Source: Egibacter rhizosphaerae (lineage in GTDB: Bacteria > Actinomycetota > Nitriliruptoria > Euzebyales > Egibacteraceae). From it: DNA of 64,000 bases. Below the pieces are notes generated by a model, which was not told the origin of the DNA, made no database searches, and saw nothing but the letters and a program-made list of their open reading frames with translations. Positions 41,051 to 60,998 of the stretch are shown here, piece after piece (within the stretch, counting starts at the first letter, position 1; each line of letters starts with the position of its first letter). Both the position numbers and the translations under genes were made by a program. The stretch spans positions 1,178,001 through 1,242,000 of the forward strand of contig NZ_CP036402.1 in assembly GCF_004322855.1 (NCBI RefSeq), given 5' to 3'.

Positions 41051-42340
41051 TCAGCCGGCGTCCGAGAGATGACGGGCGACGAGGGCAGCGGCGCTCAGCG
41101 CATCGCGGTCATCGCCCGGCAAGGCCACGACCTGCACCCCGAGGGGGAGGCCGTGCTCACCCGCGAGACCGGGTACGGCGACCGCGGGGGTGCCGAGCAA
41201 CGTCCACGGGCGGCACAACACGGGATCGCCGGTCGAGTCGGCCTTCGGAGGCTCGTTTACCACCGCCGGCACGAGCAACGCGTCGACGCCGTCGAACGCG
41301 GCAGGCAGTTCCTGCTGGCGCACCTGGTCGGCCCGCGCGAGCGCGGCCTCGTAGCGTCCCGCCGGGATGCGCTCACCGCGGTCCAGGTACTCGCCGAGCG
41401 TCTCCGAGAACTGGGACGCGTTCGCCCGGCGCAGCGCGCCGAGCTGGCGTGAGGCCTCCGCCGCCATGACGGTCTCCTGCACCTCGACGAGATCGCCGAG
41501 GCTGTCGGGCAGTTCGTGCGGCGTCGCGATCTCGGCGTGCTCGAGCGCTTCGAAAGCCTCGGCCAACCGCTCTCGAGCGCTCGGGGCCACGCGCTCCCAC
41601 CACGGCGTTCGGGCGAGCCCCAGCCGCACCGGAACGTCAGCCGCAATGAAGCTCGCCTCGTCGCCCCCGAGAACCTGTCCGGCACAGGCGACATCCTCGA
41701 CGTGAAGGCCGATCGGGCCAACGGTGTCCAGCGTCGGTCCGACCGGAAGCACGCCCTCCGTCGGCACGCGGTCGAAGGTCGGCTTGAAGCCGACCACCCC
41801 GCAGTAGGCCGCGGGGCGGACGATGGACCCAGCGGTCTGGGTGCCCAGGGCAAGCGGAACCATGCCGGCCGCCACGGCCGCCGCCGACCCACTCGACGAT
41901 CCGCCCGGTGTGCGGCTGACGTCATGGGGGTTGCGGGTCGGCCCGGGATGGAAGAGGGCCACCTCGGTCGTGACCGTCTTGCCGAGAATCACCGCCCCGG
42001 CGGCCCGCAACCGCTGGACACAGGTCGCGTCCAGGTCGGGTTGCCGACCCTCCCACACACTGCTGCCGCGGGCCGTCGGAAGGTCGGCGGTGTCGATGAT
42101 GTCCTTCACCCCGACCGGCACGCCGTGCAACGGGCCCCTGGCGGGCTCGACATCGCGCGCCCGCGCCTGCTCCAGCGCGTGGTCCGCATCCAGGTGGGCC
42201 CAGGCGCGCACCCGAGGCTCGCGTTGCTCAATCACGTCGAGGCATGCCCGCACGAGCTGCTCGGACGTCCGACGCCCCGTGCGCACGTCGTCAGCGGCGG
42301 CCACCGCCGAAGGGACGGCAGGTTCGGGGCCTGTGTCCAT
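41051..42340 (-). CDS. Amidase (amidase signature family)
   Basis: 429 residues from ATG 42340 (MDTGPEPAVPS). The Ser-cisSer-Lys triad is complete: Lys in GVPVGVKDIID, the Gly/Ser-rich signature TPGGSSSGSAAAVAAG, and the nucleophile region GTQTAGSIVRPAAYCGVVGFKPT. The family hydrolyses aliphatic and aromatic amides, ureido acids and malonamate (malonamidase E2 belongs here). In this setting I propose malonamate or a ureido acid as substrate. The gene follows hyuA's start by 26 bases on the same strand and is divergent from the NCS2 permease. A large hairpin sits in its leader. Confidence 0.88.
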   Translation of the reverse strand: MDTGPEPAVPSAVAAADDVRTGRRTSEQLVRACLDVIEQREPRVRAWAHLDADHALEQARARDVEPARGPLHGVPVGVKDIIDTADLPTARGSSVWEGRQPDLDATCVQRLRAAGAVILGKTVTTEVALFHPGPTRNPHDVSRTPGGSSSGSAAAVAAGMVPLALGTQTAGSIVRPAAYCGVVGFKPTFDRVPTEGVLPVGPTLDTVGPIGLHVEDVACAGQVLGGDEASFIAADVPVRLGLARTPWWERVAPSARERLAEAFEALEHAEIATPHELPDSLGDLVEVQETVMAAEASRQLGALRRANASQFSETLGEYLDRGERIPAGRYEAALARADQVRQQELPAAFDGVDALLVPAVVNEPPKADSTGDPVLCRPWTLLGTPAVAVPGLAGEHGLPLGVQVVALPGDDRDALSAAALVARHLSDAG

Positions 42341-42369
42341 CGCAGCTCCCGTCGCCGTCACGCTCCATG

Positions 42370-42418
42370 CGGGGCGGGCACCGACCACGACCGCCGGGCC
42401 GTCGGCGCACCCGCCCCG
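42370..42418 (-). promoter_or_regulatory. Large GC-rich hairpin in the amidase leader
   Basis: CGGGGCGGG pairs with CCCGCCCCG (9 bp) and, inside, CCGAC pairs with GTCGG. The structure ends 30 bases before the amidase ATG in the amidase/permease divergent region. It could act as an attenuator or affect translation; no known riboswitch class was recognised. Confidence 0.35.
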
Positions 42419-42598
42419 GCTGGCAGCCTAACCTCCCCGCGCTGCGCACGTGTAGGCACGACCTACTGACGATCCCCCGTTCCGTCGAGCACACTCTGCC
42501 AGCAGCGTCCGTTCGATCTCCGGACCGGGGAGGCCCACGTCCACCGGCAGCCCCGGCCTTCCCCGACCGGTCCCAGGGATGCCGTGAGGAGGACGAAG

Positions 42599-43981
42599 AT
42601 GGCCGAAACCACCGACCGTACGTTGACCGCCGCCTACGGCGTCGACGAACTCCCACCGTGGCGCCAGGCCGTTCCCATGGGCATACAGCACGTGCTCGTG
42701 ATGTTCGCGAGCAACGTGACGCTTCCGCTGCTGGTCGCAAGCGCGATCGGGGCGACGACCGGGGAGACCACACTGCTCGTGCAACTCGCCATCTTCGTGG
42801 CGGGTGTGTGCACGCTGCTGCAGACGTTCGGCGTCGGCCCCGTCGGCGCACGCCTGCCGATCGTGCAGGGCACGAGCCTGGGGTTCACCGTCGTCGCGAT
42901 TCCGTTGGCCGAGGAGTACGGGTTGGCGGCCGTGTTCGGCGGCGGGCTCGTCGCCGGGCTCGTGCAGGTGCTGCTGGGCACTTGCCTGCGCTGGCTCAAG
43001 CCGCTCTTCCCACCCTTGGTCACCGGTCTGGTCGTGCTGGTCATCGGCCTCAGCCTGCTGCCGACCGGCCTCGAGTTCGCCGCGGGGGGCGCCGACGCCC
43101 CGGACTTCGGAGCCGGGCAGAACTTCGCGCTCGCCGCCCTCGTCCTCGTGCTGATGATCGCCCTGAACCGCTACGGCCGGGGCTTCGTCAGCGCAGCGGC
43201 GATCCTGCTCGCCATCGCGGTGGGCTACCTCGTCTCGGTGCCCTTCGGGCTCGTCGAGGCACAACCGATCGCCGACGCCGAGTGGGTTGCCGCACCGATC
43301 CCGCTCGCCTTCGGGGTCTCGTTCCCGGTGGCAGCGATCGTCGGCATGGCCGTCATGGCGGTGGCCACGACGGTGGAGACCATCGGGGACATCGGGGGCG
43401 TGACCGCCGCGGGCGAGGGACGCGAACCGACCGCTCGCGAACTGTCCGGGGGCGTCCTGGCCGACGGTGTCGGCACCTCGTTCGCCGCGCTGTTCAGCGC
43501 GATGCCGAATACGAGCTATAGCCAGAACGTCGGGGTCGTCGGCCTCACCGGCGTGGTGTCACGCCACGTCGTGTCAATCGGCGCGGTCTTCCTCGTCGTC
43601 GCGGGACTCGTCCCGAAGCTCGGGGCGGTCATCTCCGAGATGCCCACGCCGGTGCTCGGTGGTGGCTTCCTCGCGATGGCGGGCATGGTCGCGGCCGCCG
43701 GTATCAAGCTGATGACCGCGGACGCCATGACGCGGCGCAACATGCTGATCATCGCCGTGGCGCTCGGGCTCGGGATCGGGTTGCTCAACGCCCCCGACGC
43801 GGTGGCAATGGCCCCCGAGACACTGCGCATCACGCTCGAGACCGGGATCGTGCCGGCCGCCGTCGCCGCGGTGCTGCTGAACGCGATCCTTCCACACGGC
43901 GAACGGGCCGCCGCGCCCCGGGGTGCGGACACCGAGGAGCGCGGTGGAGCGACCCGGCACACGGACGAGTCCCCCGAGTAG
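42599..43981 (+). CDS. NCS2 (xanthine/uracil) permease
   Basis: 460 residues from ATG 42599, with GAGGAGGACG upstream. About 12-14 membrane helices. NCS2 features: MGIQHVLVMFASNVTLPLLVASAIG at the start, IVQGTSLGFTVVAIPLAEEYG, ATTVETIGDIGGVTAAGEGREPTARELSGGVLADG and the AMPNTSYSQNVGVVGLTGVVSRHV loop. It imports nucleobases by proton symport. The NTSYSQNVG form resembles xanthine/urate-type members more than UraA, but I would not rely on this for the substrate. It is the only plus-strand gene between hyuB and pucR and faces coxG across 15 bases. Confidence 0.9.
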   Translation: MAETTDRTLTAAYGVDELPPWRQAVPMGIQHVLVMFASNVTLPLLVASAIGATTGETTLLVQLAIFVAGVCTLLQTFGVGPVGARLPIVQGTSLGFTVVAIPLAEEYGLAAVFGGGLVAGLVQVLLGTCLRWLKPLFPPLVTGLVVLVIGLSLLPTGLEFAAGGADAPDFGAGQNFALAALVLVLMIALNRYGRGFVSAAAILLAIAVGYLVSVPFGLVEAQPIADAEWVAAPIPLAFGVSFPVAAIVGMAVMAVATTVETIGDIGGVTAAGEGREPTARELSGGVLADGVGTSFAALFSAMPNTSYSQNVGVVGLTGVVSRHVVSIGAVFLVVAGLVPKLGAVISEMPTPVLGGGFLAMAGMVAAAGIKLMTADAMTRRNMLIIAVALGLGIGLLNAPDAVAMAPETLRITLETGIVPAAVAAVLLNAILPHGERAAAPRGADTEERGGATRHTDESPE

Positions 43982-43996
43982 GGCGACCGCCCCGGC

Positions 43997-44653
43997 TCAG
44001 CGGGCCAGACGCCGCCCCACGAGCACGCCGGCGAGCGCGATCAGCGCGCCGAGCACGCCCGCCCCGAGCAGCCAGCGCGGGTCGCCGCCGGCAGCACCGG
44101 CCTTCGCCGGCGCGCGAAAGACCTGACCGGGCTGCACACCGGTGGCCTCCGTGGGCGCGCCCGCTGCGGCGGGCGCCGCCTCCGCCTCGGTGGGTGCGGG
44201 CTCGACCAGCGTCTCGCCGGCGAGGTAGCGGTCCACGGCCTCGAAGAACTGCTGGGCGTTGCGCTTGGCCACCCCGATGAGCACCCGCTGTCCGACGCCG
44301 GCGATGGTGCCGCCGACGATCGCGTCCGCGTCGTAGGACAGGCGGGTCGTCCCGGGGCCCGCTTCCTCGAGCGTGATCCGCGCCGACGCGTCGACCGTTC
44401 CGGGGCCGCCGGAACCCGAGGCCTTCAGCGTATAGGCCTCCGGCTCGACCTGGTCGGCCAGGGCGACCTCGCCCGTGTACGTCCCGGTAATCGAGGCCAC
44501 GCCGACATCGAGGGTGATCTTGTAGACGCCGTCGCCCTGGGCGGTCAGCTCCCGACAGCCGGGCAGCGTGGCCGCGAGCACGTTGGGGTCCTGCAGTGCG
44601 TCCCAGACCTGCTGGCGCGACGCGTTCAGCGTGTGCGTGTCGGCAACCTTCAT
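43997..44653 (-). CDS. coxG: CoxG family SRPBCC protein with C-terminal membrane anchor
   Basis: 218 residues. Residues 1-145 are a SRPBCC/START-type fold: MKVADTHTLNASRQQVWDALQDPNVLAATLPGCRELTAQGDGVYKITLDVGVASITGTYTGEVAL and GTTRLSYDADAIVGGTIAGVGQRVL. A Pro/Ala-rich linker precedes a C-terminal helix WLLGAGVLGALIALAGVLVGRRLAR. CoxG recruits CO dehydrogenase to the membrane in Oligotropha; homologues accompany many form II molybdenum hydroxylases and probably link the enzyme to the respiratory chain. It overlaps coxL by four bases. Confidence 0.9.
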   Translation of the reverse strand: MKVADTHTLNASRQQVWDALQDPNVLAATLPGCRELTAQGDGVYKITLDVGVASITGTYTGEVALADQVEPEAYTLKASGSGGPGTVDASARITLEEAGPGTTRLSYDADAIVGGTIAGVGQRVLIGVAKRNAQQFFEAVDRYLAGETLVEPAPTEAEAAPAAAGAPTEATGVQPGQVFRAPAKAGAAGGDPRWLLGAGVLGALIALAGVLVGRRLAR

Positions 44654-47064
44654 CGGGGGACTCCCTCGTCGGAGGCGGTCGGCGCGGTGCCCTGTCCGTC
44701 CGCCGCCGCGCCGGTGCGTGACAACTCCCAGATCTCGGGGGGCGAGAGCGGCATCCGGTCGACCTCCACGCCGATGGCGTCCTCGATCGCCGCGGCGAGC
44801 ACCGCCGCGCCCGGGATCACCCCGGCCTCGCCGGCGCCCTTGATCCCGAGCGGGTTCAGGGGCGTCGGGGTCTCCAGGTGGTCGATCTCGATGCGCTGCG
44901 GCACCTCGGTCGCGTAGGGCATGAGGAAGTCCATGAACGACGCGTTCTGCAGCTGGCCGTACTCGTCGTAGGCCATCCGCTCGAAGAGCGCCCCCGCGAC
45001 CCCCTGCGCGACCCCGCCGTGGATCTGTCCCTCCACGATCGTCGGGTTGATCAGGTACCCGCAGTCGTGCACCACGCCGTACCGCAGGATCTCAACGTCG
45101 CCGGTCTCGGGATCCACGGCGACGACGCACGCATGGAACCCGTTCGCGAACGTCGACTGCGTCGGACTGTAGTAGTCCTTGCCCTCCAACCCGGGCTCGT
45201 CTCCCTCCGCGACCGGAGGGCCTCCGTCGCCTTTCAGCGTGAACTGCGTCGCGGCCTGGGCCTCCTCGCTGAAGGAGTAGCGCAGCGGGTTGGACAACAC
45301 CGCGACGTGTTTCAGCTCGATCTGCGCCTCGGGGCTCCCCTTCACCTGCACCACGCCGTCGACGATCTCGAGATCGTCGGGATTCGCCTCGAGCGCGTCG
45401 GCGGCGATCCGCAACGCCTTCTCACGCACCTTGCGCGTGGCCAGTGCGATCGCGTTGCCGCTCATCACCGCCGCGCGGGAGGCGAACGTGCCCACCGCGT
45501 AGCCGAACCGGCGCGTGTCGCCGGTGGTGACGTGCACGTCCTCGAACGGCACGCCGAGCTCGCTGGCGACGATCTGGGCGAAGACCGTCTGGTGGCCCTG
45601 TCCCTGGCTCGTGAGCCCGGTCGAGACCATCACCCGGCCGTTGGTCTCGACGTGCACGTGCCCGCCCTCGTACGGGCCCACGGCCGTGCCCTCGACGTAG
45701 CCGGCGAGGCCGACGCCGATGCGGCGGCCGTCGGGCGCCTCCTTCGACAGGTGCTCGTAGTCCACGAGGTCCAGCAGCTTCTGCAGGCTCGCGGGGAAGT
45801 CGCCCGAGTCGTAGATCGCCGGCTTGCCGTCCTGGAACATCAGCCCGAGGTCGTAGGGCATCTCGTCGGGCTGGATGAAGTTGGCGAACCGGACCTCGGC
45901 ACGGTCCTTGCCGAGGCGGGTGGCGATCTTGTCGATCGTGCGCTCCATCGTGAACACGCCCTGCGGACGGCCGGCACCGCGGTACGGGGTGACCATCACG
46001 GTGTTCGTGTAGACGCTCGTGAACTCGACCCGGTAGGCGCCGAGCTTGTAGGGCCCCGGCAGCTGGGTCGAGGTGATGATCGGGACGATGATCCCGTAGG
46101 GCGTGTAGGCCCCGTTGTCGTGCAGGAACTCGACGTCGAGCCCCAGGATGCGCCCGTCCTCGTCGAAGCCCACCCGTACGTGGTGCACCTGGCCGCGCTC
46201 GTGCGCGCTCGACACGAAGTGCTCCCGGCGGTCCTCGACCCACTTCACCTCCCGCCCGAGGGTCTTCGCCGCCCACGGCACCAGCAGCTCCTCGGGGAAC
46301 GGATGGACGATCTTGACCCCGAAGCCGCCGCCGACGTCCGGCGCGATCACCTCGACCTGCGCGTCCGCGAGCTCGAGCGCGTTCGCGACCGCGGCCCGCA
46401 CGCTCGTGGACGTCTGCGTCGAGGAGTAGGCGCGCAGGCGTTGGTCGTCGGCGTCCCAGCGCGCGTAGACCCCCCGGCCCTCGAGCGGCATGGACGCGCT
46501 GCGCTCGATGTCGAGACGGAACTCCAGGGTGTGCGGCGCCCCGTCGATCGCGGCCGGCGCGTCGCCGACCTCCTGTACGAGGTGCGCGGCGACGTTGTCG
46601 GGGATCTCGTCGTGGACGGCGGTCTCCCCGCGCGCGGCCTCCTCGAGGTCGACGATCGGGTCGAGGAAGTCGTACGAGACCCGGATGCGCTCGGCGGCGT
46701 CCTCGGCCACGTACCGGTCGGTCGCGACGACCATGGCGATCGCCTCCCCGACGTGGTTCACCTCGCCGTTGGCGAGCGCGTACGCGGTCCGCGGCGCCCG
46801 CAACGCGGGATGCGGGATCAGCACCGGCAAGGGCTTGGCCATCTTCTCGGGCAAGTCCTCGTAGGTGTAGATCGCCACCAGCCCGTCGACGTCGAGCGCA
46901 TCGGTCACGTCGATGTCGGTGATCCGCGCGTGGGCGTGGGGGCTGCGGACGAACGCGACGCCGAGGGCGTTCTGGCCGAGGTCGTCGACGTAACGCCCCT
47001 CGCCGCGGAGCAGCCGCGGATCCTCGCTCCGCGCGACCTTCTCGCCGAACAGCTTCGTCGTCAT
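44650..47064 (-). CDS. Molybdenum hydroxylase large subunit, form II CoxL-like
   Basis: 804 residues from ATG 47064. Xanthine dehydrogenase family Mo-binding subunit: GEGRYVDDL, the Q-loop region DVGGGFGVK, and the active-site loop PYRGAGR at residues 360-366. True CO dehydrogenase (form I) has AYxCSFR; form II has AYRGAGR, so this is not a CO oxidiser by sequence. TSQGQGHQTVFAQI and the C-terminal IKGAGEAGVIP, with the essential Glu, complete the Mo-pterin cytosine dinucleotide site. It probably hydroxylates a heteroaromatic ring carbon next to nitrogen with water as oxygen source. The context suggests uracil or thymine to barbiturate, an inference. Confidence 0.9.
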   Translation of the reverse strand: MTTKLFGEKVARSEDPRLLRGEGRYVDDLGQNALGVAFVRSPHAHARITDIDVTDALDVDGLVAIYTYEDLPEKMAKPLPVLIPHPALRAPRTAYALANGEVNHVGEAIAMVVATDRYVAEDAAERIRVSYDFLDPIVDLEEAARGETAVHDEIPDNVAAHLVQEVGDAPAAIDGAPHTLEFRLDIERSASMPLEGRGVYARWDADDQRLRAYSSTQTSTSVRAAVANALELADAQVEVIAPDVGGGFGVKIVHPFPEELLVPWAAKTLGREVKWVEDRREHFVSSAHERGQVHHVRVGFDEDGRILGLDVEFLHDNGAYTPYGIIVPIITSTQLPGPYKLGAYRVEFTSVYTNTVMVTPYRGAGRPQGVFTMERTIDKIATRLGKDRAEVRFANFIQPDEMPYDLGLMFQDGKPAIYDSGDFPASLQKLLDLVDYEHLSKEAPDGRRIGVGLAGYVEGTAVGPYEGGHVHVETNGRVMVSTGLTSQGQGHQTVFAQIVASELGVPFEDVHVTTGDTRRFGYAVGTFASRAAVMSGNAIALATRKVREKALRIAADALEANPDDLEIVDGVVQVKGSPEAQIELKHVAVLSNPLRYSFSEEAQAATQFTLKGDGGPPVAEGDEPGLEGKDYYSPTQSTFANGFHACVVAVDPETGDVEILRYGVVHDCGYLINPTIVEGQIHGGVAQGVAGALFERMAYDEYGQLQNASFMDFLMPYATEVPQRIEIDHLETPTPLNPLGIKGAGEAGVIPGAAVLAAAIEDAIGVEVDRMPLSPPEIWELSRTGAAADGQGTAPTASDEGVPR

Positions 47065-47630
47065 CGGCCGCTCCCCTCCGCCTTGCCGGGGTCCGCACGT
47101 AGGCCCGCCGAACGCACCGGCCGGTCCACCGCCGGGACCGGCTCCTCCGCCTCCGACACGAGCTCCGCGGCGCGGTGCACGGCTGCGACGATGTTCTGGT
47201 AGCCCGTGCACCGACAGAGGTTGCCCGCGATCCCCTCGCGAACCTCGTCCTCGTCCGGGTCGGGATTCTCGGCCAGCAGCCCGCACGTCGTCATCAGGAA
47301 CCCCGGCGTGCAGAAACCGCACTGCAGTCCGTGGCAGTCCGCGAACGCCTGCTGCACCGGGTGCAGCGAGCCGTCGGCGGGGTTGAGGCCCTCGACGGTC
47401 GTGATCGCCGCGCCACGGGCCGCGACCGCGAAGGTGAGGCAGCTGCGGACCGGCTCCCCGTCGAGCAGCACGGTGCAGCAGCCGCACACGCCGTGCTCGC
47501 ACCCCACGTGGGTGCCGGTCAGTCCGAGATCGTGGCGCAGGGCGTCGGACAGCAGCCGACGCGGGGGCAGCGTGACCTCGTGTGGCGCTCCGTTGACCAT
47601 CAGCGTCACGTCGACCGTTGGCTCGCTCAT
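47061..47630 (-). CDS. Molybdenum hydroxylase iron-sulfur subunit (CoxS/XdhC type)
   Basis: 189 residues from ATG 47630, with a GAG-rich site upstream. Two 2Fe-2S clusters: a plant ferredoxin-type set GCEHGVCGCC with a further Cys near residue 64, and the helical set LQCGFCTPG plus NLCRCTGYQN. It passes electrons from the Mo centre to FAD. A C-terminal extension of about 25 residues beyond CRCTGY is rich in Pro, Glu and Arg. It overlaps coxL by four bases, and coxM ends 58 bases upstream of its start. Confidence 0.93.
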   Translation of the reverse strand: MSEPTVDVTLMVNGAPHEVTLPPRRLLSDALRHDLGLTGTHVGCEHGVCGCCTVLLDGEPVRSCLTFAVAARGAAITTVEGLNPADGSLHPVQQAFADCHGLQCGFCTPGFLMTTCGLLAENPDPDEDEVREGIAGNLCRCTGYQNIVAAVHRAAELVSEAEEPVPAVDRPVRSAGLRADPGKAEGSGR

Positions 47631-47688: not shown

Positions 47689-48588
47689 CTACGCGGCCGC
47701 GGGCACACGATCGCGAGCGTGCGCCGAGGCCTGCGCGAGCGCCCGCGCGGTCAGCACGCTGGCGAGGTGCCGGCGGTACTCCGCCGGGGCGTGCAGGTCG
47801 GCCTCGGGCTCACAGGCCGCAGCGACCCGCTCCCCCGCCGCCGACCAGGCCTCGGGCGCGGTCGCTGGTTCCAGCGACCGGCCGGCGGCCGCATCGCCGA
47901 CGTCGAGGACCAGCGGCGTGGGGTGCACGCTGATCGTCGCGATCCGAGCGGCAGCGACCTCACCGTCGGGGGCGTCGACGGTCGCCGCGATTCCGCAGAG
48001 CGCGTAGTCCCCGTGGCGGCGGGCGCGCTCCACGAACGCCGACCCCGTCGTGGCCGGAAGCGCCGCGAACTCCGCGTGTGTCACGAGCTCGCCGGGCGCG
48101 ATGTCGGCCTCGAGCGGCCCGAGGAAGAAGTCCGACGCCGACACCCGGCGGGTCACGACCTCACCGCCGTCGCCCGCGCGGGCCAGTTCGACCACGCCGT
48201 CGCACAGCGCCAACACGGCGGTCAGCTCTCCGGCGGGGTCCGCGTGCGCCAGGCTGCCGACGACCGTCCCGCGGTTGCGGATCACCTCGTGGGCCACGTA
48301 GCCGAGGGCCTGCGGGAGCAGCGGGTTGGCCTCCCCCGCCTCCCGATGGCGCTCGAGGTCGCGGTGGCGCACCGCCGCGCCGACCCGGACCGTGTCCGAG
48401 GACACCTCCACGGCGCGCAGCTCCTCGATGCCGGTGACGTCGACGAGGGCCCGCGGGGCCGTGAGCCGCATGTTCAGCAGGGGGATCAGGCTCTGCCCCC
48501 CGGCGAGCACCTTCCCGCCCTCGCCGAGCCGTCGCACGGCCTCGGCCACGGTGTCCGGCGCGTGATATTCGAACGGCGGAGGCTTCAT
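47689..48588 (-). CDS. Molybdenum hydroxylase FAD subunit (CoxM type)
   Basis: 299 residues from ATG 48588. FAD-binding domain of the PCMH type: FEYHAPDTVAEAVRRLGEGGKVLAGGQSLIPLLNMRLTAPRALVDVTGI (the AGGQSL motif holds the FAD pyrophosphate) and the second motif NRGTVVGSLAHADPAGELTAVL. The C-terminal CO_deh_flav_C domain has GSAFVERARRHGDYALCGIAATV. It completes the L-S-M enzyme, with reducing power passing to quinone or another acceptor. It is separated from DUF1116 by 154 bases, where a promoter for the cox genes may lie. Confidence 0.93.
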   Translation of the reverse strand: MKPPPFEYHAPDTVAEAVRRLGEGGKVLAGGQSLIPLLNMRLTAPRALVDVTGIEELRAVEVSSDTVRVGAAVRHRDLERHREAGEANPLLPQALGYVAHEVIRNRGTVVGSLAHADPAGELTAVLALCDGVVELARAGDGGEVVTRRVSASDFFLGPLEADIAPGELVTHAEFAALPATTGSAFVERARRHGDYALCGIAATVDAPDGEVAAARIATISVHPTPLVLDVGDAAAGRSLEPATAPEAWSAAGERVAAACEPEADLHAPAEYRRHLASVLTARALAQASAHARDRVPAAA

Positions 48589-48742: not shown

Positions 48743-50209
48743 TCACGGGGCTTCCCCCGGCGCGGCGCCAACACCCGCGAGCGGGTCGGTCACGGGGCTC
48801 TCGGCCCGCGCGGCCAGTTCCCGCACCGCGTCGGCGAAGCACGACAGTGGGGGCTCGACGAGGCCTGCCCCGACCTGGCCGGTGCCGGGCTCCTTGCCGG
48901 CGATGCCCGTGTTGACGGCGGGGACGATGCCCGTGCGGCACACCAACGTCGCGTCGATGCCCGTCGGGGTCCCGCGGAACCCGAGGATCGGGATCTGATA
49001 TGCGGTCGACTCGGCGAGCGTGATCTCGTACATGCGGCGGGTGAAGCGCAGGGCGTCCGCGACCTCGCCGCCGACGAAGCGCACGATCGCCGGCGCGGCC
49101 GCCATCGCGAACCCGCCGATCCCGCAGCTCTCGGTGATCGTGGAGTCGCCGATGTCGGGATTGGCGTCCTCGGGCCCGTACTCCCCGAGGTAGAGCCCGT
49201 CGGGCACGCTGGCCGGCGCGGTGAACCACGTGTCACCGGTACCGGCGAGTTGCACCCCGAACTCGGTCCCGTTGCGGGCCATGGCCACGAGCATCGACGA
49301 CCCGGCCAGGCCGCGGGCGCTGTCGGTCGCGGCCTTGGCAGCGGGCATCACCACGTTCAGGAAGAAGTGGTCGTTCGCGTTGATGAACCGGGTGACGGCC
49401 GCGATGTCCGCAACGGGCGCGTCGATCTCGATCAGATCGCTCACGAACTCGCGGAGGAACAGGCTCGTCCCGGCGCGGTGCCGGTTGTGCCCCTCGTCGC
49501 CCATCTGCAGCGCCTGCGCCAGGAGGGCGCGCACATCGATCGGCCCGGTGCGCTCGAGGGTGCGCGCGAGCAGCGGCCCGAGCACCCGCTCCATCCACTG
49601 CAACCGCTCGGTCACCTCGTCCCCGAACGCGCCGTAGCGCAGGACCTTGCCGAGGCCCTCGTTGAGGGTGCAGCGGGCGACGGTGCCGTGCTCCTCGTCG
49701 CGCAGGGTGAACACCGGCATCGAGGGCGCGACGATGCCGGCCATCGGACCGACCGCGCCGCGGTGGTGGGCGGGCTCCAGCGCGATCTCCCCGTTGGCGG
49801 CCATGCGCTCGGCGGCCTCGGGATCGTCCGCGACGCCCTCGTAGAGCAGCGCGCCGATGATCGCACCGCGCATCGGCCCGCTCGCGTGCGCCCAGTCGAT
49901 GGGGGGTCCGGCGTGCAGCAGCGTCCGGTCGTCGAGGTCGAGGGCATCCCGTGCGGTCTCGATACCGACCAGGTGCGGCCGCGACGTGAGGAGCCGGCCC
50001 ACGGCCTGCGCGTTCGCCTCGCTCAAGCGCGGATCTCCGGCGACCGTCGCCAGCGCCTCGGCGGTGCCGTCCACCGGCGGGCGCCATTGTGCCCGCAGGC
50101 TGGTGGCGCCCTGGCCGGCGAGCGCCGCGTCGAACCGCTCGGCACCGGCGGTCGCGACGGCCGGCGCTTCGTCGAGCAGGCCACCCAGCGGAGCGTGTGC
50201 GCGCGTCAT
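48743..50209 (-). CDS. DUF1116 protein (YlbE/AllG-like carbamoyltransferase subunit)
   Basis: 488 residues; ATG 50209 overlaps the FdrA stop (ATGA). DUF1116 features include the region MRGAIIGALLYEGVADDPEAAERMAANGEIALEPAHHRGAVGPMAGIVAPSMPVF, ARCTLNEGLGKVLRYGAFGDEV, QMGDEGHNRHRAGTSLFLREF and the later SMLVAMARNGTEFGVQLAGTGDTWFTAPA. In E. coli the homologue YlbE, with FdrA and YlbF, was shown to be the oxamate (oxalurate) transcarbamylase AllFGH. Here all three genes are present and overlapping, with carbamate kinase first. I infer a three-part carbamoyltransferase acting on a different ureido acid. Confidence 0.88.
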   Translation of the reverse strand: MTRAHAPLGGLLDEAPAVATAGAERFDAALAGQGATSLRAQWRPPVDGTAEALATVAGDPRLSEANAQAVGRLLTSRPHLVGIETARDALDLDDRTLLHAGPPIDWAHASGPMRGAIIGALLYEGVADDPEAAERMAANGEIALEPAHHRGAVGPMAGIVAPSMPVFTLRDEEHGTVARCTLNEGLGKVLRYGAFGDEVTERLQWMERVLGPLLARTLERTGPIDVRALLAQALQMGDEGHNRHRAGTSLFLREFVSDLIEIDAPVADIAAVTRFINANDHFFLNVVMPAAKAATDSARGLAGSSMLVAMARNGTEFGVQLAGTGDTWFTAPASVPDGLYLGEYGPEDANPDIGDSTITESCGIGGFAMAAAPAIVRFVGGEVADALRFTRRMYEITLAESTAYQIPILGFRGTPTGIDATLVCRTGIVPAVNTGIAGKEPGTGQVGAGLVEPPLSCFADAVRELAARAESPVTDPLAGVGAAPGEAP

Positions 50210-51747
50210 CGGGTCTCTCCCAGCAGCTCGACTGCGGCGCGTGTCGCGGCCGCGTTGGACAGGTAGATGCTCGCCCCGGCGTCGACGAGCTCGGCGGCCT
50301 GGCGCGTGAGGTCCTGCGGGTCGTCGCGCGTGCCGATCAGCGACACGATCGCGGCGAACTGACCGCCGGCGTCACGGGCCGCGGTGCGCGCCTCGGCGAT
50401 CGCCGGGCCGAGCTCGCTCGCCGGGTTCGGGTGCGCGACGTGGCCGAGCACCACATCGAGCAGGACGACCACGCGGTGGCCGGATCCCGCCTCCGCGTCC
50501 AGCCGGTCGATCCGGATCGTGTTGTCGATCATCGGGTGCGGACGGCCGGAGGTGAGGTCGTCCTCGCCGTAGTCCACCATCGCGTGGCCGGCGCCCTCGA
50601 TCCCGTGCAGGGGCTCGTGCGGGTCGAGCGCCCAATCGTCCTCGAGCGGCACGTTCGAGCGGATCGGTCCGAGCCGCTCGGCCGCGATGGCCATGGACTC
50701 GTCGCAGAGCGTCCCTCCCGCGAACAGCCCGCGCAGCACCTCGTACCCCGACCCGACGGTGCGGTTCGGCGTCCACGTGCGTGGGGGCTGCGGGTCGTGC
50801 CCCAGCGTCGACAGCGCGGCCTCCGCGACCTCGGTGAGGTCCCGCTGACCGGGGCCCACGAGGCCGAGGACCACGGGGGTCGCGCACTGCTCCGCCGCCT
50901 CGCGGATGCGCTCGGCCACGGCCTTGTCCGGCGGCTTCGAGACGAGGACGATCACCTCGGTGGCCGGATCCGCGTCGAGCGCCTCGAGCGCCTGGATCGT
51001 CGCGATGCCGCCGACGTCGGCGGAGAGGTCGCGGCCACCGACCCCGAGCACGTGGCTGACGCCCACCCCGGCCGCGTCGAGCAGCGAACACACCTGTTGC
51101 GCGCCGGTCCCGCTCGCGGCGACCATCCCGACCGGACCGGGGCGCATCACGTTGGCGAAGCCGAGACCGACCCCGCCCACGATCGCGGTGCCACAGTCGG
51201 GGCCCATCACGAGCCGGTCGCGCTGCCGGGCCTCGGCCTTCAGCGCGATCTCCTGCTCCAACGGCACCCCGTCGCTGAACACCATCACGTTCGCGCCCGC
51301 GCGCAGGGCGTCCATCGCCTCCGTGAAGGCGTACTGGCCGGGGACGGTCACGAGCGCGAGCCCGGCACCGAGCGCTCGGGTGGCGCTGCCCAGGGTCCGC
51401 GGGGCCTCGCCGGTGTCGGCGAGCCCGTCGCTCCCGCCGCCGGCCGAGGCCTGCGTGAGCTGCGTGTCCACGGCCGTGCGGGCCGCGGCGAGATGATCGG
51501 CGTCGTCGGCCGCCAGCGCGACGACGAGGTCGTTCGGCCCGGCCTCGCCGGCGTCGAATCCCGCCTGCTCGAGCAGCTCGAGGTTGAGCGGGGTGGCCAT
51601 CGCGATCAGCGCCGTGCGCACCCCGGGGCCTCGGGCCACCTCCTGGCTCACGACCATCAGGGTCACCGAGTCGTGGTAGGCCCCCGGGCGCACCTCCAGG
51701 TGGCGCACGACGTCGTCGCGCGCCTCGGATTCGGCTGCGGTCGTCAC
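50206..51747 (-). CDS. fdrA: FdrA-like acyl-CoA-synthetase-fold carbamoyltransferase subunit
   Basis: 513 residues; GTG 51747 overlaps the upstream stop, with GAGGAG before it. A succinyl-CoA-ligase-like fold: ALVTVPGQYAFTEAMDALRAGANVMVFSDGVPLEQEIALKAEA, VMGPDCGTAIVGGVGLGFANVM and VGMVAASGTGAQQVCSLLDAAGVGVSHVLGVGGRDLS are FdrA hallmarks; the last third has HPMIDNTIRIDRL and VVLLDVVLGHVAHPNPA. E. coli FdrA (AllF) is part of the oxamate transcarbamylase. It would use phosphate and a carbamoyl-bearing acid to form carbamoyl phosphate in the cytoplasm. Confidence 0.9.
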   Translation of the reverse strand: MTTAAESEARDDVVRHLEVRPGAYHDSVTLMVVSQEVARGPGVRTALIAMATPLNLELLEQAGFDAGEAGPNDLVVALAADDADHLAAARTAVDTQLTQASAGGGSDGLADTGEAPRTLGSATRALGAGLALVTVPGQYAFTEAMDALRAGANVMVFSDGVPLEQEIALKAEARQRDRLVMGPDCGTAIVGGVGLGFANVMRPGPVGMVAASGTGAQQVCSLLDAAGVGVSHVLGVGGRDLSADVGGIATIQALEALDADPATEVIVLVSKPPDKAVAERIREAAEQCATPVVLGLVGPGQRDLTEVAEAALSTLGHDPQPPRTWTPNRTVGSGYEVLRGLFAGGTLCDESMAIAAERLGPIRSNVPLEDDWALDPHEPLHGIEGAGHAMVDYGEDDLTSGRPHPMIDNTIRIDRLDAEAGSGHRVVVLLDVVLGHVAHPNPASELGPAIAEARTAARDAGGQFAAIVSLIGTRDDPQDLTRQAAELVDAGASIYLSNAAATRAAVELLGETR

Positions 51748-52622
51748 GGGAGCTCCTCTCGCAGGGGGTCGGGGACAGTGGGGTCATTGGCAGGGGGCGA
51801 TCCGGGAGCATCCGACGCACCGAGCGGCGCGGGCGGCAGCACGAGCCGGGTCCCCAGGCGGATCCCGGCGAGCAGATCGCGACCGCTGGTCCCCCCGACG
51901 GCGGCGAGCCGCGCCATCGCCGCATCGATACCCCGTCCGCTGGCCAGTGCCACCAGGACACGCGCGGCGGGGGCCGAGGGCCGGCCGTCGGCCGCGTGCC
52001 CGAGCAACGCGGCGGACACGAGCGGGGTCCGGTCCACTGCCAGCTCGCGACAGGTCGTGGCCACCGCGTCGACCACCGGGAGGGTGTCGGCGCACCGTTC
52101 CGTCAGCGCGTCCGGCAACGTACATGCCGCGGCGAGCAGCCCCGCCAGCAGGTCGTCACCCGCCGGTGTCAGCCCGACCCCGGCGCCGATCAGCGCCTTC
52201 GCCGCGTCCGCGGCAGCGCCGGGCTCCCGGCGCCGGACCGCTTCCTCGAGCCGCTGCGCGGCGCCGTTGGAGCCCGCAGGCAGACCCGGAGCGCGGCTGG
52301 GTAGCGCGCGCGCAACAGCGGCCAGCGCGTTGCCCGTCGTGACCGGGAGCGAGGGCCGCGGCTCCCACCATCGCCGCACCACCACCTCGACCTCGCCGCA
52401 GGTGAGCCGCCCCGCTCCGACGACCACGGGCCCGCGACGGGCGATGGCGCGCAGTGGTGCGGGGTCGGCGACGACGACCGAGTTCGGCAGTGCCGCAGCC
52501 TCCCGGTCGACGAGTGCGATCACGTCGGCATCGACCGCGAGGTACGCCGCGTGATCGAACGCGGCCAGCGTCCTCGCCGCCCGCGCCGGGCCGTCGAGCA
52601 GCTCGGCGACCGCCGTGCTCAC
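51744..52622 (-). CDS. DUF2877 protein (YlbF/AllH-like carbamoyltransferase subunit)
   Basis: 292 residues from GTG 52622 (MSTAVAELLDGPARAARTLAAFDHAAYL). An in-frame GTG at 52673 is possible and would leave only four bases after the arcC stop; neither start has a convincing ribosome site. DUF2877 features are the glycine-rich loop AKALIGAGVGLTPAGDDLLAGLLAA, DRTPLVSAALLGHAADGRPSAPAARVLVAL and GGTSGRDLLAGIRLGTRLVL. In E. coli the relative YlbF (AllH) completes the oxamate transcarbamylase. It overlaps fdrA by four bases. It is the most variable member of the three and may set substrate choice, which is inference. Confidence 0.83.
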   Translation of the reverse strand: MSTAVAELLDGPARAARTLAAFDHAAYLAVDADVIALVDREAAALPNSVVVADPAPLRAIARRGPVVVGAGRLTCGEVEVVVRRWWEPRPSLPVTTGNALAAVARALPSRAPGLPAGSNGAAQRLEEAVRRREPGAAADAAKALIGAGVGLTPAGDDLLAGLLAAACTLPDALTERCADTLPVVDAVATTCRELAVDRTPLVSAALLGHAADGRPSAPAARVLVALASGRGIDAAMARLAAVGGTSGRDLLAGIRLGTRLVLPPAPLGASDAPGSPPANDPTVPDPLREELP

Positions 52623-52677
52623 CGCGCCGCCACGACCGGTGACAGGCTGCGGCGGACGGGAGGCCGTCGCCACCTGG

Positions 52678-53637
52678 CTAGCCACGCTCCACCTGCGTGC
52701 CGGAGCTCCCCGCGGCCACGTCGGTGATGTCGTCCAGGTCACCGATCGCCGCCCAGGGCTCGACGACGGTCGACCCCTCGACGAACCGGGCACAGGCCTC
52801 GACCTTCGGCGCCATCGAGCCCGCTGCGAAGTGCCCGTCGGCCTGCAGCCCCCGCAGCTCACCGGCGGTCACCGAATCGAGCCAGCGCTCCTCGGGCGTC
52901 CCGAATCCGGTGGCCACGCCGGGGACGTCGGTGAGGATCAACAAGCGCTGCGCGCCCACCGCGTGCGCGAGCGGCACCGCCGCGAGGTCCTTGTCGATGA
53001 CCGCCTCGACCCCGTGCAGCGAGCCGTCCTCGGAGCGCACCATCGGCACGCCACCGCCACCGTTGGCGATCGGGATGGCGCCACCCTCCAACACGAGGGC
53101 GAGGCTCTGACCGTCCAGGGGCTCGCGCGGCTCGGGGCTGGCCACGACCCGGCGCCAGCCCTTCTCGCCCTGGCGTGCCCAGTGCTCCCCGGTGGCCTGC
53201 ACCTGGCGCTCGACCTCCTCGGGGTCGGTGAGGTAGCGGCCGACCGGCTTCGTCGGCGAGGCGAACGCGGGATCGTCCCGGTCGACCCGCACCCGGCTCA
53301 CCAGCGGGATCACCGGAACGGGACGACCGCGCGCAGCCAGTTCGGCCTCCAGGGCGGTGCACATCGTGAAGCCGATCGTGGCCTGGGTCTGCGCCACGCA
53401 CCAGTCGAGGGGCATGGGCGGCACGACGTCCTTCGCGAGATCGTTCTTGAGCAGGAGGTTGCCGACCTGGGGTCCGTTGCCGTGGGTCAGGACGATCTCG
53501 TGGCCCGTCTCGACGAGATCCGCGACCAGCCGCATCGCGGCGGTGATGTTGCGCGTCTGCTCGTCGGCCGTGCCACCGGAGCCCGCCGGTGCGATCGCGT
53601 TGCCCCCCAACGCGATGACCACCCGCGCGCCGCTCAT
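52678..53637 (-). CDS. arcC: Carbamate kinase
   Basis: 319 residues from ATG 53637. Amino-acid-kinase fold: VVIALGGNAIAPAG, VLTHGNGPQVGNLLLKND, MPLDWCVAQTQATIGF, the active-site lysine and Asp/Asn in IPIANGGGGVPMV and AVIDKDLAAVPLA, RLLILTDVPGVATGFGTPEE, and the closing GSMAPKVEACARFVEG. It makes ATP from carbamoyl phosphate and ADP, releasing carbamate (CO2 and NH3). No arginine deiminase or ornithine carbamoyltransferase accompanies it, so the carbamoyl phosphate must come from elsewhere; the next three genes supply a candidate. It is first in this four-gene unit. Confidence 0.95.
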   Translation of the reverse strand: MSGARVVIALGGNAIAPAGSGGTADEQTRNITAAMRLVADLVETGHEIVLTHGNGPQVGNLLLKNDLAKDVVPPMPLDWCVAQTQATIGFTMCTALEAELAARGRPVPVIPLVSRVRVDRDDPAFASPTKPVGRYLTDPEEVERQVQATGEHWARQGEKGWRRVVASPEPREPLDGQSLALVLEGGAIPIANGGGGVPMVRSEDGSLHGVEAVIDKDLAAVPLAHAVGAQRLLILTDVPGVATGFGTPEERWLDSVTAGELRGLQADGHFAAGSMAPKVEACARFVEGSTVVEPWAAIGDLDDITDVAAGSSGTQVERG

Positions 53638-53928: not shown

Positions 53929-55401
53929 TCAGGCCTGGCCGCCCCAGGGGCCGCCACCCTGACCCTGGTCCGGGTTGTTCGGGTCGATCGGCTCCGACGC
54001 CTCGGTCGGCGCAGTACCGGCTGCTTGGAGACCGCGCTCGACCTTCGTCCCCGGAATGATGTTGTCCAGGATCAGGCCGAGGATCGCGGCGACCGCCATT
54101 CCGGTGGTGCCGACGGTCGTGATGATGCCGTCGAGCTCGTCGATGCCCGTCAGCACCGGCTCGTACTCGGCGAAGTAGTACGGCACCGAGAGCCCGGCGA
54201 AGAGGATGAACCCCATGATCATGAGGTTGCGCTGACTGGTGAGGTCCGCGCGGGTCGACTGGCTGATCCCGATCGACGCGATCAGCCCGAACAGCAGGAA
54301 GTAGAGCCCGCCGACGATCGGGGTGGGCAGGGTTGCGACGGCAGCGCCGAACCGCTCGAACAACCCGACCACCAGGAGAATCGCGGCCGCCGTGTACACG
54401 ACCACTCGGCTGGCCACGCGGGTGAGACCGACCAGCCCGATGTTCTCGGTGTAGCTGGTCGAGCTGAAGCCGCCGACGAGTCCGCTGATGAAGCAGCCGA
54501 TGCCCTCGGCACCGATGCCGCGGTTGACCTGCTTCTCGCTCGGCTCGCCCGCGCCCGCGGCCCGGGCGACCGCGAAGTAGTCCCCGAACGACTCGATCAT
54601 CGACGCGAGGAAGCCGGCGAGCGTCCCGATGACCGCGCCCGTCACGAAGTTCGGCAGGCCCCACGGGAAGATCAGCGTCGTGGGGTCACGGAACCACGCG
54701 GCGTCACCCACGGGGCCGAAGTCCACCGCCTGCGCGCTGTCGGCGGCGAACACGCCCGCCCCGGTGAGACCCACCGCGATGACGTACGTCACCACGATCG
54801 CGAGCAGGATCGGGAACAGGGCGAAGAACTTGATCTTCTGCGCCAGGATCAGCGTGAACGTGATTCCGAGGACGATCGTGATCACCGCGAGGGGCCAGCC
54901 GCCCGCGGCGTTGTCCGCAGCCGCGTCGAACAGCGCGAGCCCGATCAGGGCGATGACCGGCCCGATCACCACCGGCGACACGAACTGGCGGACCTTGCCG
55001 AACAAGGTCGAGTAGCCGAGCAGGATCTGCACGAGCGACCCGGCCATGATCGCGCCGGCGATCACCGGCATCGCGTCAGTCACGCCGTCCGGGTTGGCGG
55101 CGATGATCGCGAAGAACGGGCCGAGGAACGCGAACGACACGCCCTGGATCAGCGGCAACCGCGTACCGATCCGGACCTGCAGGAACGTCGCGATCCCCGA
55201 AGCGATCATGACCGAGGAGATCAGCACCGCCTGCTCTTGCGGACTCGCGCCCATCTCCGGTCCCAACAGCAGCGGCACCGCGATGGTCGCGCCGAACATG
55301 GTGAGCACGTGCTGGATCCCCAGGCCGAGCATGGTGACCGGCTTGGGCACGTCGTCCAGCGCGTACCGCATCTGCTCCTTGCCCATCATCTGTTCACTCA
55401 A
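53929..55401 (-). CDS. NCS2 (uracil/xanthine-type) permease
   Basis: 490 residues. The start is TTG 55401: AAGGAGG lies six bases upstream of it, whereas the in-frame ATG at 55389 would be 18 bases away. About 14 helices. NCS2 features are LGIQHVLTMFGATIAVPLLLGPEMG, IQGVSFAFLGPFFAII, SMIESFGDYFAVARAAGAGEPSEKQVNRGIGAEGIGC and SSTSYTENIGLVGLTRVASR. The glutamates in MIESFGDYF and TSYTENIG are in the usual nucleobase contact positions. A C-terminal tail of about 30 residues is Pro/Asn/Gly-rich. It probably brings pyrimidines in for the adjacent dihydropyrimidinase set. Confidence 0.9.
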   Translation of the reverse strand: MSEQMMGKEQMRYALDDVPKPVTMLGLGIQHVLTMFGATIAVPLLLGPEMGASPQEQAVLISSVMIASGIATFLQVRIGTRLPLIQGVSFAFLGPFFAIIAANPDGVTDAMPVIAGAIMAGSLVQILLGYSTLFGKVRQFVSPVVIGPVIALIGLALFDAAADNAAGGWPLAVITIVLGITFTLILAQKIKFFALFPILLAIVVTYVIAVGLTGAGVFAADSAQAVDFGPVGDAAWFRDPTTLIFPWGLPNFVTGAVIGTLAGFLASMIESFGDYFAVARAAGAGEPSEKQVNRGIGAEGIGCFISGLVGGFSSTSYTENIGLVGLTRVASRVVVYTAAAILLVVGLFERFGAAVATLPTPIVGGLYFLLFGLIASIGISQSTRADLTSQRNLMIMGFILFAGLSVPYYFAEYEPVLTGIDELDGIITTVGTTGMAVAAILGLILDNIIPGTKVERGLQAAGTAPTEASEPIDPNNPDQGQGGGPWGGQA

Positions 55402-57921: not shown

Positions 57922-59019
57922 TCAGTCTCCCACGTCGACGATCGCCGCCACCGGGCCGCCTCCCGCGGGACCCTGATGCAGGGCCCCGACCGAGACGAAC
58001 ACCGCCGGGTCGCCGACCGCCGCCGCGGTCACCCCTCCGACCGCGCCCTTCGCGTGACGATGCCAGTGCACGTCCGAGTCGTCGAGCATGATCTGTCGGC
58101 GACCCCGCAACGTCGCGTCCGGGGCCGCTTCGCACTTCAGGAACACGTTGACGAAGCGCTCGTCGATGTCGCCCGGATGAGGGCGGTCAGGCAGGTCCAG
58201 GCCCGCCGACCGCAGCGCCCGGTAGATCCCGTCGAAATCGAGCGCGTCCTCCATCACGGAGTGTCCGATCCGATACCGGCCACCCACGCCCGGCGCGTTC
58301 CCCACCACGACGATCTGCCCGCGCTCGAGCTCCACGCCCGACGAGCACGAGGCGACCGACGAGTAGAGCGAGTGGTCCTTGCCGATCTGCTCGGCGGTGG
58401 GCATGTCGATCTCCCCGAGGCCGACGGCGATACCCAGGCCGGTGGTCCCGTTCGACATGTCCATCGACTGGTGGATGTCCTCACTGAAGACCGTCTGTCC
58501 CCGGGACTTCGCGTCGTTGATGGTCTCCATCGTGAGCAGCGGCGTCTTCGTCTGGACGTAGTGCACCTCGGAGGGATCGGTGATCCCCGCCGCCTTCATC
58601 GCGTCCCGCACGCCGTGCGCGATCTTCTCGACCATCGCCGGGCGCCCGATGTCCTCGGGTTGGATGACCTCGCTCATCGCGATCCCGGCCGTGAGACGCG
58701 GCTCGGGCCTGGGGTTCGGGTCGTCGACCCGGGCGAACACCGTCGCGTGCGGCGTGATCACCCCGTCACAGCCGCCCGACCAGACCATCGGGATCTGATC
58801 GATCTCGGACTGGCCGCGGGTGCCGCGCTCGAGGAGCACCTGATCGAAGGCCATGTCGGCGAGGACACGCGTGAAGTCGTTGACGCCGCCGTTGCCCTCG
58901 GTCTTGCCGATGATCCCGAAGACGTCGTCGGCTCCGAACGCCCCGTCGTCGATCAGCGCCGCGAGGCCGCTGGCGTCGTTGACGCTGCCGATCTCGACCT
59001 TGCGGACCTCGAATGCCAC
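57922..59019 (-). CDS. Ring-opening amidohydrolase: barbiturase/cyanuric acid hydrolase family
   Basis: 365 residues from GTG 59019, with AAGGAGG four bases upstream. The family has three similar domains, each giving a Lys and a Ser. Visible are K in [15 protein letters not shown] with S in [12 protein letters not shown] in VQTKTPLL with the [11 protein letters not shown] segment, and [10 protein letters not shown] with [21 protein letters not shown], the last being the family's metal-binding C-terminus. Enzymes of this rare family open barbituric acid (to ureidomalonate) or cyanuric acid (to carboxybiuret). I cannot separate these from sequence alone; pyrimidine-type neighbours favour barbiturase. 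It is divergent from pucR. Confidence 0.88.
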
Positions 59020-59267
59020 GCATCCTCCTTGTGGTCGTGGTGACTGGGGGTCGGGCTCCGGCTGCGGCCACCAGCAAGGCCACCCCCGGGAGCGTGCTGG
59101 TGAACGGTGGACGTTAGCGCACGACGGCCCGGCGCCGATATGGCAACATACTCCCAGTCTCCAGTTCATCATTGTCATTCTTTGCCGGAGCGACCGAGTG
59201 GGGACGGCGCCGTGGTGGCGATCGCCCTCGGGCACCCGCACTCGGTCCGGCTGATCGCGAGGGGCGG
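59020..59267. promoter_or_regulatory. Divergent promoter region between the barbiturase-family gene and pucR
   Basis: This 248-bp region contains an AT-richer patch at about 59140-59185 (GATATGGCAACATAC, CATCATTGTCATTC), unusual against the GC-rich background. It is the likely place for the start sites of the catabolic operon (minus strand) and of pucR. A specific PucR site is not recognised. Confidence 0.4.
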
Positions 59268-60998
59268 ATGCAGGAAACGGGAGCGACGGGGCGCGGTGGC
59301 GCACGCGGTGGTGTCGGACGGGGCATCGGGCCACGGGCGTCCGAGGACCGCGGCCGGCTCGATCGCCAGGGCCTTCCGGTCCGCCAGGTGCTCAGTGCCA
59401 CGTCGCTGGCGGCTGCCGAGGTCCTCGCAGGTCGCGAGGGTCTCGAGCGTCCCGTCGAGCGCCTCAACGTCATGGAGGTACCCGACATCCTGCCGTGGGT
59501 GAAGCCTCGTGAGTTCCTCCTCACGACCGCCTACCCGCTGCGCGAGGATCCCGAGCGCCTGCCCGGGCTCGTGGCGCAGCTCGCCGACCGGGGCCTGGCC
59601 GGGATGGGCGTCAAGATGGGCCGCTACCTCGACGACCTACCGTCGGGGCTCCTCGACGTCGCCGACGAGCTCGCCTTCCCCATCGTTCGGCTACCCGACC
59701 ACGTCGGGTTCGACGACATTCTGAACGAGGTCCTCACCGAGATCCTCAACCGCCAGGCCAGCGTGCTCGCGAGGTCGGAGGAGACCCACCGGGCCCTGCT
59801 GCAGATCGCCCTGTCCGGTGGTGGATGGCCCGAGATCGCTCGCGACCTCTCGGAGCTGCTGGAGTCGGCGGTCCTCCTCTCGGACGCCGACCGGACGGTG
59901 CAGGCCGCTGCGGGACTCGACGGCCTCAAGGGGGCGCTCCGGGACGAGGGGATCCTGGAGGGCACCACGGTGCTGGCCACCGACATCGCCGCCGAGCTCG
60001 ACCGCAGCGGCCCCGGCGCGGAGGTCGGCCGGGGCAGTGTGCGCGCGATCGGTGCCCCGATCCGCGCGGGCGCGCGGCTGCACGGACGCATCCTCACCGT
60101 CGAGGGCGCGCGGGAACTCGACGCGGGGGACGTGATCGCGCTCGAGAACGCCGCCACGGTCGCAGCGCTGGTGGTCACCAAGGAGGCCGCGGTGGCCGCC
60201 GTCGAGTCGAAGTACGCCGCGGACTTCCTGCACGACCTCATCGCCGGGCGCGTCGCCGATGAGACCGACGTGGCCACGCGCGCCAGCGCACTCGGCTGGC
60301 AGCTCGACCGACCCCTGGTCACCCTGGTCGCCGCCCCCGAGCCGTCCGCCCCCGGGCCGGACGACGACCTGACCGAACGCACCGCCGCGGCGCTGCGCAC
60401 CGCGGTGCTGCCCGGCGATCCCGGCGCGGCCGTGGTGCCGTTGTCGGGGAGCGTCGTCGTGCTCGCGGGCGCACCCGACACGGCCGACGAGACCCGCCGG
60501 CTCGCGAGCACGCTGGCGAGCGAGGGGCGCGAGAACGCCGGTCGCCCGATCGGGATCGGGGTGAGCCGCCCGGTCGATGGGGCCCTCGAGCTCGCCACCT
60601 CGTACGAGCAGGCCGAGCGCGCGCTCCGCATCGGCCGAGAGATCGCTGGCGCGGGAGCGGTCGCGCACTTCGACGACCTCGGCGCGGATCGGCTGCTCTC
60701 GCTCATCCCGGACCAGGAGGAGCTCCGCGCCTTCGCCGACGAGGTGCTCGGCCCGGTCGCCGGGGAAGCCCCCGACGACCGGGAGCTGCGGCGCACGCTG
60801 CTCGTCCTCCTCGAGGAGCACCTGAACGTGGCCGCGAGCGCGCGGCGCCTGCACGTGCACTACAACACGCTGCGCTACCGCATCGACAAGCTGGAGCGGC
60901 TCCTCGGCCCGTTCACGAGCGACCCGCGGCTGCGGCTCGACCTACAGCTGGGACTGCGCATCCTGCCGCGGTTCCGCCTCGTACCGCCCCGCGACTAG
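59268..60998 (+). CDS. PucR-family transcriptional regulator
   Basis: 576 residues from ATG 59268 ([11 protein letters not shown]), with GAGGGGCGG upstream; an earlier ATG at 59172 would add 32 residues over the promoter region. Residues 35-150 are the PucR N-terminal domain ([56 protein letters not shown]). The middle has a GAF-like and a degenerate GGDEF-like (CdaR) segment. The C-terminal helix-turn-helix is [37 protein letters not shown]. PucR proteins control purine and other nitrogen-compound catabolism in response to intermediates. It sits centrally and is probably the regulator of the region. Confidence 0.92.

Follow-up and report, generated by a model that had tools for sequence, protein, structure and literature searches.

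A barbiturase-linked AllFGH–carbamate kinase gene set in Egibacter rhizosphaerae with ureidomalonate as its probable substrate

We suggest that three adjoining genes of Egibacter rhizosphaerae, homologous to the oxamic transcarbamylase AllFGH of E. coli, encode an enzyme that probably works on ureidomalonate and not on oxalurate. The genes stand together with a carbamate kinase gene (arcC), and ureidomalonate from a barbiturase of the same cluster, encoded 4.3 kb from arcC, emerges as the likely carbamoyl donor. We infer every catalytic step in this organism from what is observed, namely the identities of the genes, their linkage, co-occurrence and phylogeny. Judged from sequence, the trio, carbamate kinase and barbiturase of many actinobacteria probably split ureidomalonate with a yield of ATP and ammonia, and not of urea. 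The AllFGH enzyme family and oxidative pyrimidine catabolism are both already known; the proposed barbiturase-linked phosphorolytic variant would be new. No paper in the open literature searched connects FdrA or carbamate kinase with either barbiturase or cyanurate hydrolase, and an earlier notice is possible.

The trio and its gene cluster

The window is the whole stretch of DNA that was analysed (64,000 nucleotides). Gene coordinates and family matches bear out the original prediction that the trio overlaps by four bases, is led by arcC and forms one unit. The 4-nt overlaps are present at both junctions, AllG/AllF and AllF/AllH, and the best-placed AllH start is a GTG at 52673, just past the ArcC stop. 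Pfam matches name all four products, and all three AllFGH subunit families are encoded together, with PF06545 and PF11392 above cut-off. The NCBIfam score of FdrA lies under the curated cut-off (399 against 433 bits). ArcC, matched over its full length, is below the cut-off of TIGR00746 (331 against 358) and above that of PRK12352 (267 against 266), and it is the sole carbamate kinase-level match in a search of the 4.64 Mb genome. A promoter and terminator scan found none. The AlphaFold2 model of AllH is confident (pLDDT 88); it matches no PDB fold at E≤0.001 and gave no structural clue.

Features of the cluster, with window coordinates
Feature	Position	Strand	Evidence
Fused AccD/AccA-like carboxyltransferase, candidate malonyl-CoA decarboxylase	33273..34784	-	family match; cluster comparison
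CaiB-family dicarboxylate CoA-transferase, candidate for malonate activation	34818..35966	-	family match; cluster comparison
HyuB-like subunit	36784..38742	-	family match; co-conserved
HyuA-like subunit	38739..41024	-	family match; co-conserved
Amidase-signature enzyme, candidate malonamidase	41051..42388	-	best PDB match malonamidase E2, 247 bits
Second NCS2 nucleobase permease (pbuX-like)	42584..43981	+	family match
CoxG-like accessory protein	43997..44653	-	position and sequence; co-conserved
Mo-hydroxylase large subunit (CODH group-5 type), candidate uracil-to-barbiturate oxidase	44650..47064	-	NF040766 1432 bits; co-conserved
Mo-hydroxylase 2Fe-2S subunit, start inferred	47061..47630	-	co-conserved
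Mo-hydroxylase FAD subunit, start inferred	47689..48588	-	family match
AllG homologue (DUF1116, PF06545), barbiturase-associated clade	48743..50209	-	PF06545 E=6e-91, 304 bits; AllG tree; PDB homologue 3clq, 373 bits
AllF/FdrA homologue	50206..51747	-	NF004760 399 bits; PF00549/PF02629; PDB 3dmy FdrA, E=5e-69
AllH homologue (DUF2877, PF11392), start inferred	51744..~52673	-	PF11392 74 bits; AlphaFold2 model
Carbamate kinase ArcC/AllK homologue	52678..53637	-	TIGR00746 331 bits; PF00696; genome search
NCS2 nucleobase permease	53929..55401	-	PF00860
Barbiturase (ring-opening amidohydrolase), candidate ureidomalonate source; start with SD inferred	57922..59019	-	PF09663 E=3.5e-142; PDB 5hwe
PucR/CdaR-type regulator, divergent from barbiturase	59172..60998	+	conserved in relatives

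Homologues (52–58%) of the permease that follows arcC in the table lie between ArcC and barbiturase or beside the trio in class relatives. In the window, dihydropyrimidinase and N-carbamoyl amidohydrolase-like (C-N hydrolase) genes are located between this permease and barbiturase. The dihydropyrimidinase gene (55504–56905, minus strand) is split by a frameshift near 56115–56145, owing to sequencing error or decay; together its two halves cover a single family along its whole length. The malonamidase E2 entries (PDB 1ock) are the closest solved structures to the candidate malonamidase, which keeps the same motif around the nucleophile, GTQT-GS--RPA-CG, as do five class relatives. The Arg of this motif presumably takes part in malonate binding. 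The N-terminal part of the HyuA reading frame contains a tandem repeat of GDDAGGGGPR-type units (40612–40950).

Barbiturase linkage and AllG phylogeny

Compared with solved structures, the ring-opening enzyme of the window scores 538 bits against barbiturase 5hwe and 310 against the best cyanuric acid hydrolase (CAH). It has Asn at the position of CAH Arg188, as in 5hwe, and this residue is kept in all 80 close relatives. For the barbiturase subgroup Gln has been stated at this position (PMC4051656), whereas the sequences, that of 5hwe included, show Asn. With this signature and score, cyanurate was rejected as the ring substrate.

A scan of bacterial genomes with the barbiturase alignment gave 80 loci, all on actinobacterial or MAG contigs. 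At 56 of the 77 loci with room for it, arcC immediately precedes barbiturase in the same orientation, and the gap measures from tens of bases to a few hundred. In some Nonomuraea and Actinomadura loci no ArcC adjoins barbiturase. Trio genes come immediately after barbiturase at five loci (L095, L109, L132, L155 and L164), as AllH-AllF-AllG or, on short contigs, as AllF, the order barbiturase-AllH-AllF-AllG being that of several MAGs. For the 50 barbiturase loci at which AllG was not already visible, a search of the genome found it in 47/47 non-Rhodococcus genomes and in 0/3 Rhodococcus genomes. Unlike the window, the Rhodococcus loci have an amidase of another subfamily after barbiturase, and no ArcC was seen there. 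Ureidomalonase has reportedly been measured in R. erythropolis.

Outside the class, where trio and barbiturase share a contig they are often 18–90 kb apart (median 32 kb, 25 cases); in 18 of 43 cases they are on different contigs. The genes between them repeat most of the window set in three sampled clusters, the amidase excepted, and in several distant clusters with trio and barbiturase no malonamidase-like amidase turned up. In a panel of 296 genomes of the phylum, 36 carry AllG and 18 a member of the ring-opening family, four of which are divergent. The other 14 are of the barbiturase subtype and all have AllG, against 22 of the 282 remaining genomes (Fisher p=1e-14, with kinship left uncorrected). 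Within the class AllG matches barbiturase in 12/12 against 0/15 genomes, again with a tiny Fisher p that ignores kinship. For five related trios no barbiturase was detected in the genome.

The AllG tree comprises 89 sequences, with only two rows, E. coli and Enterococcus gilvus, on the allantoin side. The barbiturase-associated AllG all fall in a single clade (SH-aLRT 98), which includes Embleya and Nonomuraea, where barbiturase is 16 and 40 kb from the respective trio. The AllG of E. coli and E. gilvus, whose genes have allC and allD as neighbours, make up another supported clade, and the phylogeny proposed earlier as a check thus places the window AllG outside the two allantoin-type sequences. 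No barbiturase was detected in the sister group of the barbiturase clade; in three of its members (L040, L048 and L049) HyuA/HyuB adjoin AllF, possibly as an alternative ring-opening enzyme.

The window subunits are 42–46% identical to E. coli AllFGH, for AllH over 103 residues only. The AllG and AllF columns conserved across the compared clades are retained in the window, which is itself part of the alignments defining these columns. Taken together, sequence comparison supports the view that the trio is not of E. coli type. The comparison does not single out AllH or FdrA as the subunit diverged in specificity, as had been suggested: AllH varies most of the three even among members of the barbiturase clade (mean column identity 34%), and AllG has more positions that depart from the allantoin-type enzymes than AllF has.

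The carbamoyl donor and alternative readings

E. coli AllFGH interconverts oxalurate plus phosphate and oxamate plus carbamoyl phosphate (PMC11326118). No AllC, AllD or AllE was identified in the annotated part of the window (about 24–64 kb). Family searches, on which the whole-genome absences rest, put AllC (best 207, cut-off 598) and AllD (best 215, cut-off 496) below cut-off throughout the genome. The claim that the usual E. coli partners are lacking holds for the surroundings of the trio and, for AllC and AllD, for the whole genome. Allantoin genes are nonetheless present elsewhere: an allantoinase (513 bits) lies at 2.018 Mb, about 0.8 Mb from the trio, and adjoins a Mo-hydroxylase and an allantoicase/OHCU-decarboxylase fusion. 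Since this allantoinase stands beside the allantoicase fusion and AllC and AllD are missing, we suggest that purines are routed via allantoicase and not via oxalurate. The noted lack of an arginine deiminase context is confirmed as well. A candidate gene resembling arginine deiminase (444, cut-off 489) lies at 3.756 Mb, 2.5 Mb away, and such a context was rejected for the trio.

An E. coli-type trio in a genome with the rest of the allantoin pathway, which would speak against the original prediction, is not what we find, as AllG falls into a separate clade and AllC and AllD are absent. The same two results led us to reject oxalurate as the donor; its supply from the E. coli branch is very unlikely. 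A donor different from that of the allantoin case was thus rightly expected, but it need not stay open, the barbiturase in the same cluster having been overlooked.

The same three-subunit family with ArcC would also be expected of an ordinary oxamic transcarbamylase merely moved out of its usual operon and acting on oxalurate from purines, and a PucR regulator and xanthine-like permeases are close by, with purines degraded by another locus of the genome. However, with AllD and AllC missing oxalurate could not be made, allantoicase is used at the purine locus, and AllG stands apart from the two allantoin-type AllG and tracks barbiturase, which makes this explanation quite unlikely. It is very doubtful, too, that HyuAB or another enzyme of the cluster supplies an unrecognised acylurea, barbiturase being a separate branch alongside it in a cluster that handles several substrates. 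The strong co-conservation of HyuAB and its place next to AllF in the three sister-group loci lacking a detected barbiturase fit such a scheme, but it is set against the direct barbiturase-AllHFG and ArcC-barbiturase adjacency and the complete co-occurrence in the 47 genomes.

Dihydropyrimidinase and N-carbamoyl amidohydrolase-like genes between permease and barbiturase might suggest an alkyl ureide as the substrate, e.g. N-carbamoyl-beta-alanine from reductive pyrimidine breakdown. We find this hardly credible, given that the window dihydropyrimidinase is frameshifted, that neither it nor the C-N hydrolase gene was detected at the trio of class relatives, and that phosphorolysis of alkyl ureides is thermodynamically unfavourable. 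Biuret or carboxybiuret formed from cyanurate could be considered because AllFGH-ArcC is linked to CAH-type enzymes on Aminobacter, Klebsiella and Citrobacter plasmids. The ring-opening enzyme of the window has the signature and score of barbiturase and not of CAH, however, and the CAH-linked AllG are outside the window AllG clade, so that a substrate of this kind is highly improbable here.

Proposed pathway and the wider family

Hence, we prefer ureidomalonate as the substrate of the trio and propose the following route. Because ureidomalonate is oxalurate with one additional CH2, the same acylurea bond would be cleaved.

Step 1: Uracil or a related pyrimidine would enter through the NCS2 permease. 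The Mo-hydroxylase would then oxidise it to barbiturate.

Step 2: Barbiturase would open the ring of barbiturate with the formation of ureidomalonate. AllF-AllG-AllH would convert ureidomalonate and phosphate to malonamate and carbamoyl phosphate, which gives clear roles to both ArcC and the malonamidase-like amidase.

Step 3: ArcC would transfer the phosphate of carbamoyl phosphate to ADP, yielding ATP, CO2 and NH3. The amidase would hydrolyse malonamate to malonate and NH3, and the CoA-transferase and carboxyltransferase-like proteins may carry malonate to acetyl-CoA.

The pathway is favoured by the family search of the genome, in which no urease (urease alpha) was found; the co-conservation of HyuAB, which has no assigned step, counts against it, as do the frequent separation of trio and barbiturase outside the class, the loci with no ArcC next to barbiturase, the distant clusters in which no malonamidase-like amidase turned up and the trios for which no barbiturase was detected.

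The three subunit families and carbamate kinase are common to the window and to E. coli AllFGH-AllK (PMC11326118, PMC9843812), from which the window differs in its separate AllG clade, the missing AllC and AllD, the barbiturase link and the proposed products, malonamate and carbamoyl phosphate. With the oxidative pyrimidine pathway, which according to Soong et al. (cited in PMC3758960) comprises barbiturase and, as its hydrolytic step, ureidomalonase and ends in malonate and urea, the cluster shares barbiturase, a Mo-hydroxylase-type oxidase and a nucleobase permease. In contrast, the proposed phosphorolysis would replace ureidomalonase and give carbamoyl phosphate, not urea. Nearest in the literature searched to a link of barbiturase or cyanurate hydrolase with FdrA is a study of nitrifiers (PMC12625717), where allFGHK lies beside biuH in comammox bacteria and ammonia-oxidising archaea and is read by its authors as serving oxalurate degradation. 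There too AllFGHK is outside an allantoin operon, but the link is to biuret hydrolase and no atzD-family gene was found.

Plasmids carry a related arrangement. Those of Aminobacter (L070) and Klebsiella (L230) have AllF, AllG, cyanurate hydrolase and arcC with AllH nearby, the hydrolase aligning with solved entry 5t13, and that of Citrobacter (L229) has cyanurate hydrolase-NCS2 permease-AllH-AllF-AllG-arcC in one run. In the AllG tree these cyanurate-hydrolase-linked sequences fall outside the barbiturase clade. The Klebsiella stretch also holds atzF. E. coli K-12 has a second AllHFG-arcC set (yahEFGIJ, L232 5926–12508) followed by the amidohydrolase YahJ, and an amidohydrolase comes after arcC in the Aminobacter set as well. 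On a Methylocystis plasmid (L233 4905–9529) DUF1116 and an FdrA-matching protein are found among MSMEG_0565-0572/Sll0783 nitrogen-starvation genes.

The linkage of cyanurate hydrolase, AllFGH and arcC on plasmids suggests a broader class of enzymes. We consider the chances evenly balanced that AllFGH is a general acylurea phosphorylase matched to different ring-opening enzymes, with oxalurate as the substrate in the allantoin case, ureidomalonate with barbiturase and biuret or carboxybiuret with cyanurate hydrolase, each keeping the carbamoyl group as ATP via the linked carbamate kinase. If the proposed pathway is true, oxidative pyrimidine degradation in many actinobacteria would run through a branch that conserves energy and gives carbamoyl phosphate and ammonia, not urea. 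A large clade of FdrA/DUF1116/DUF2877 proteins would then also have a substrate, and one would be suggested for the cyanurate operons on plasmids of Enterobacteriaceae.
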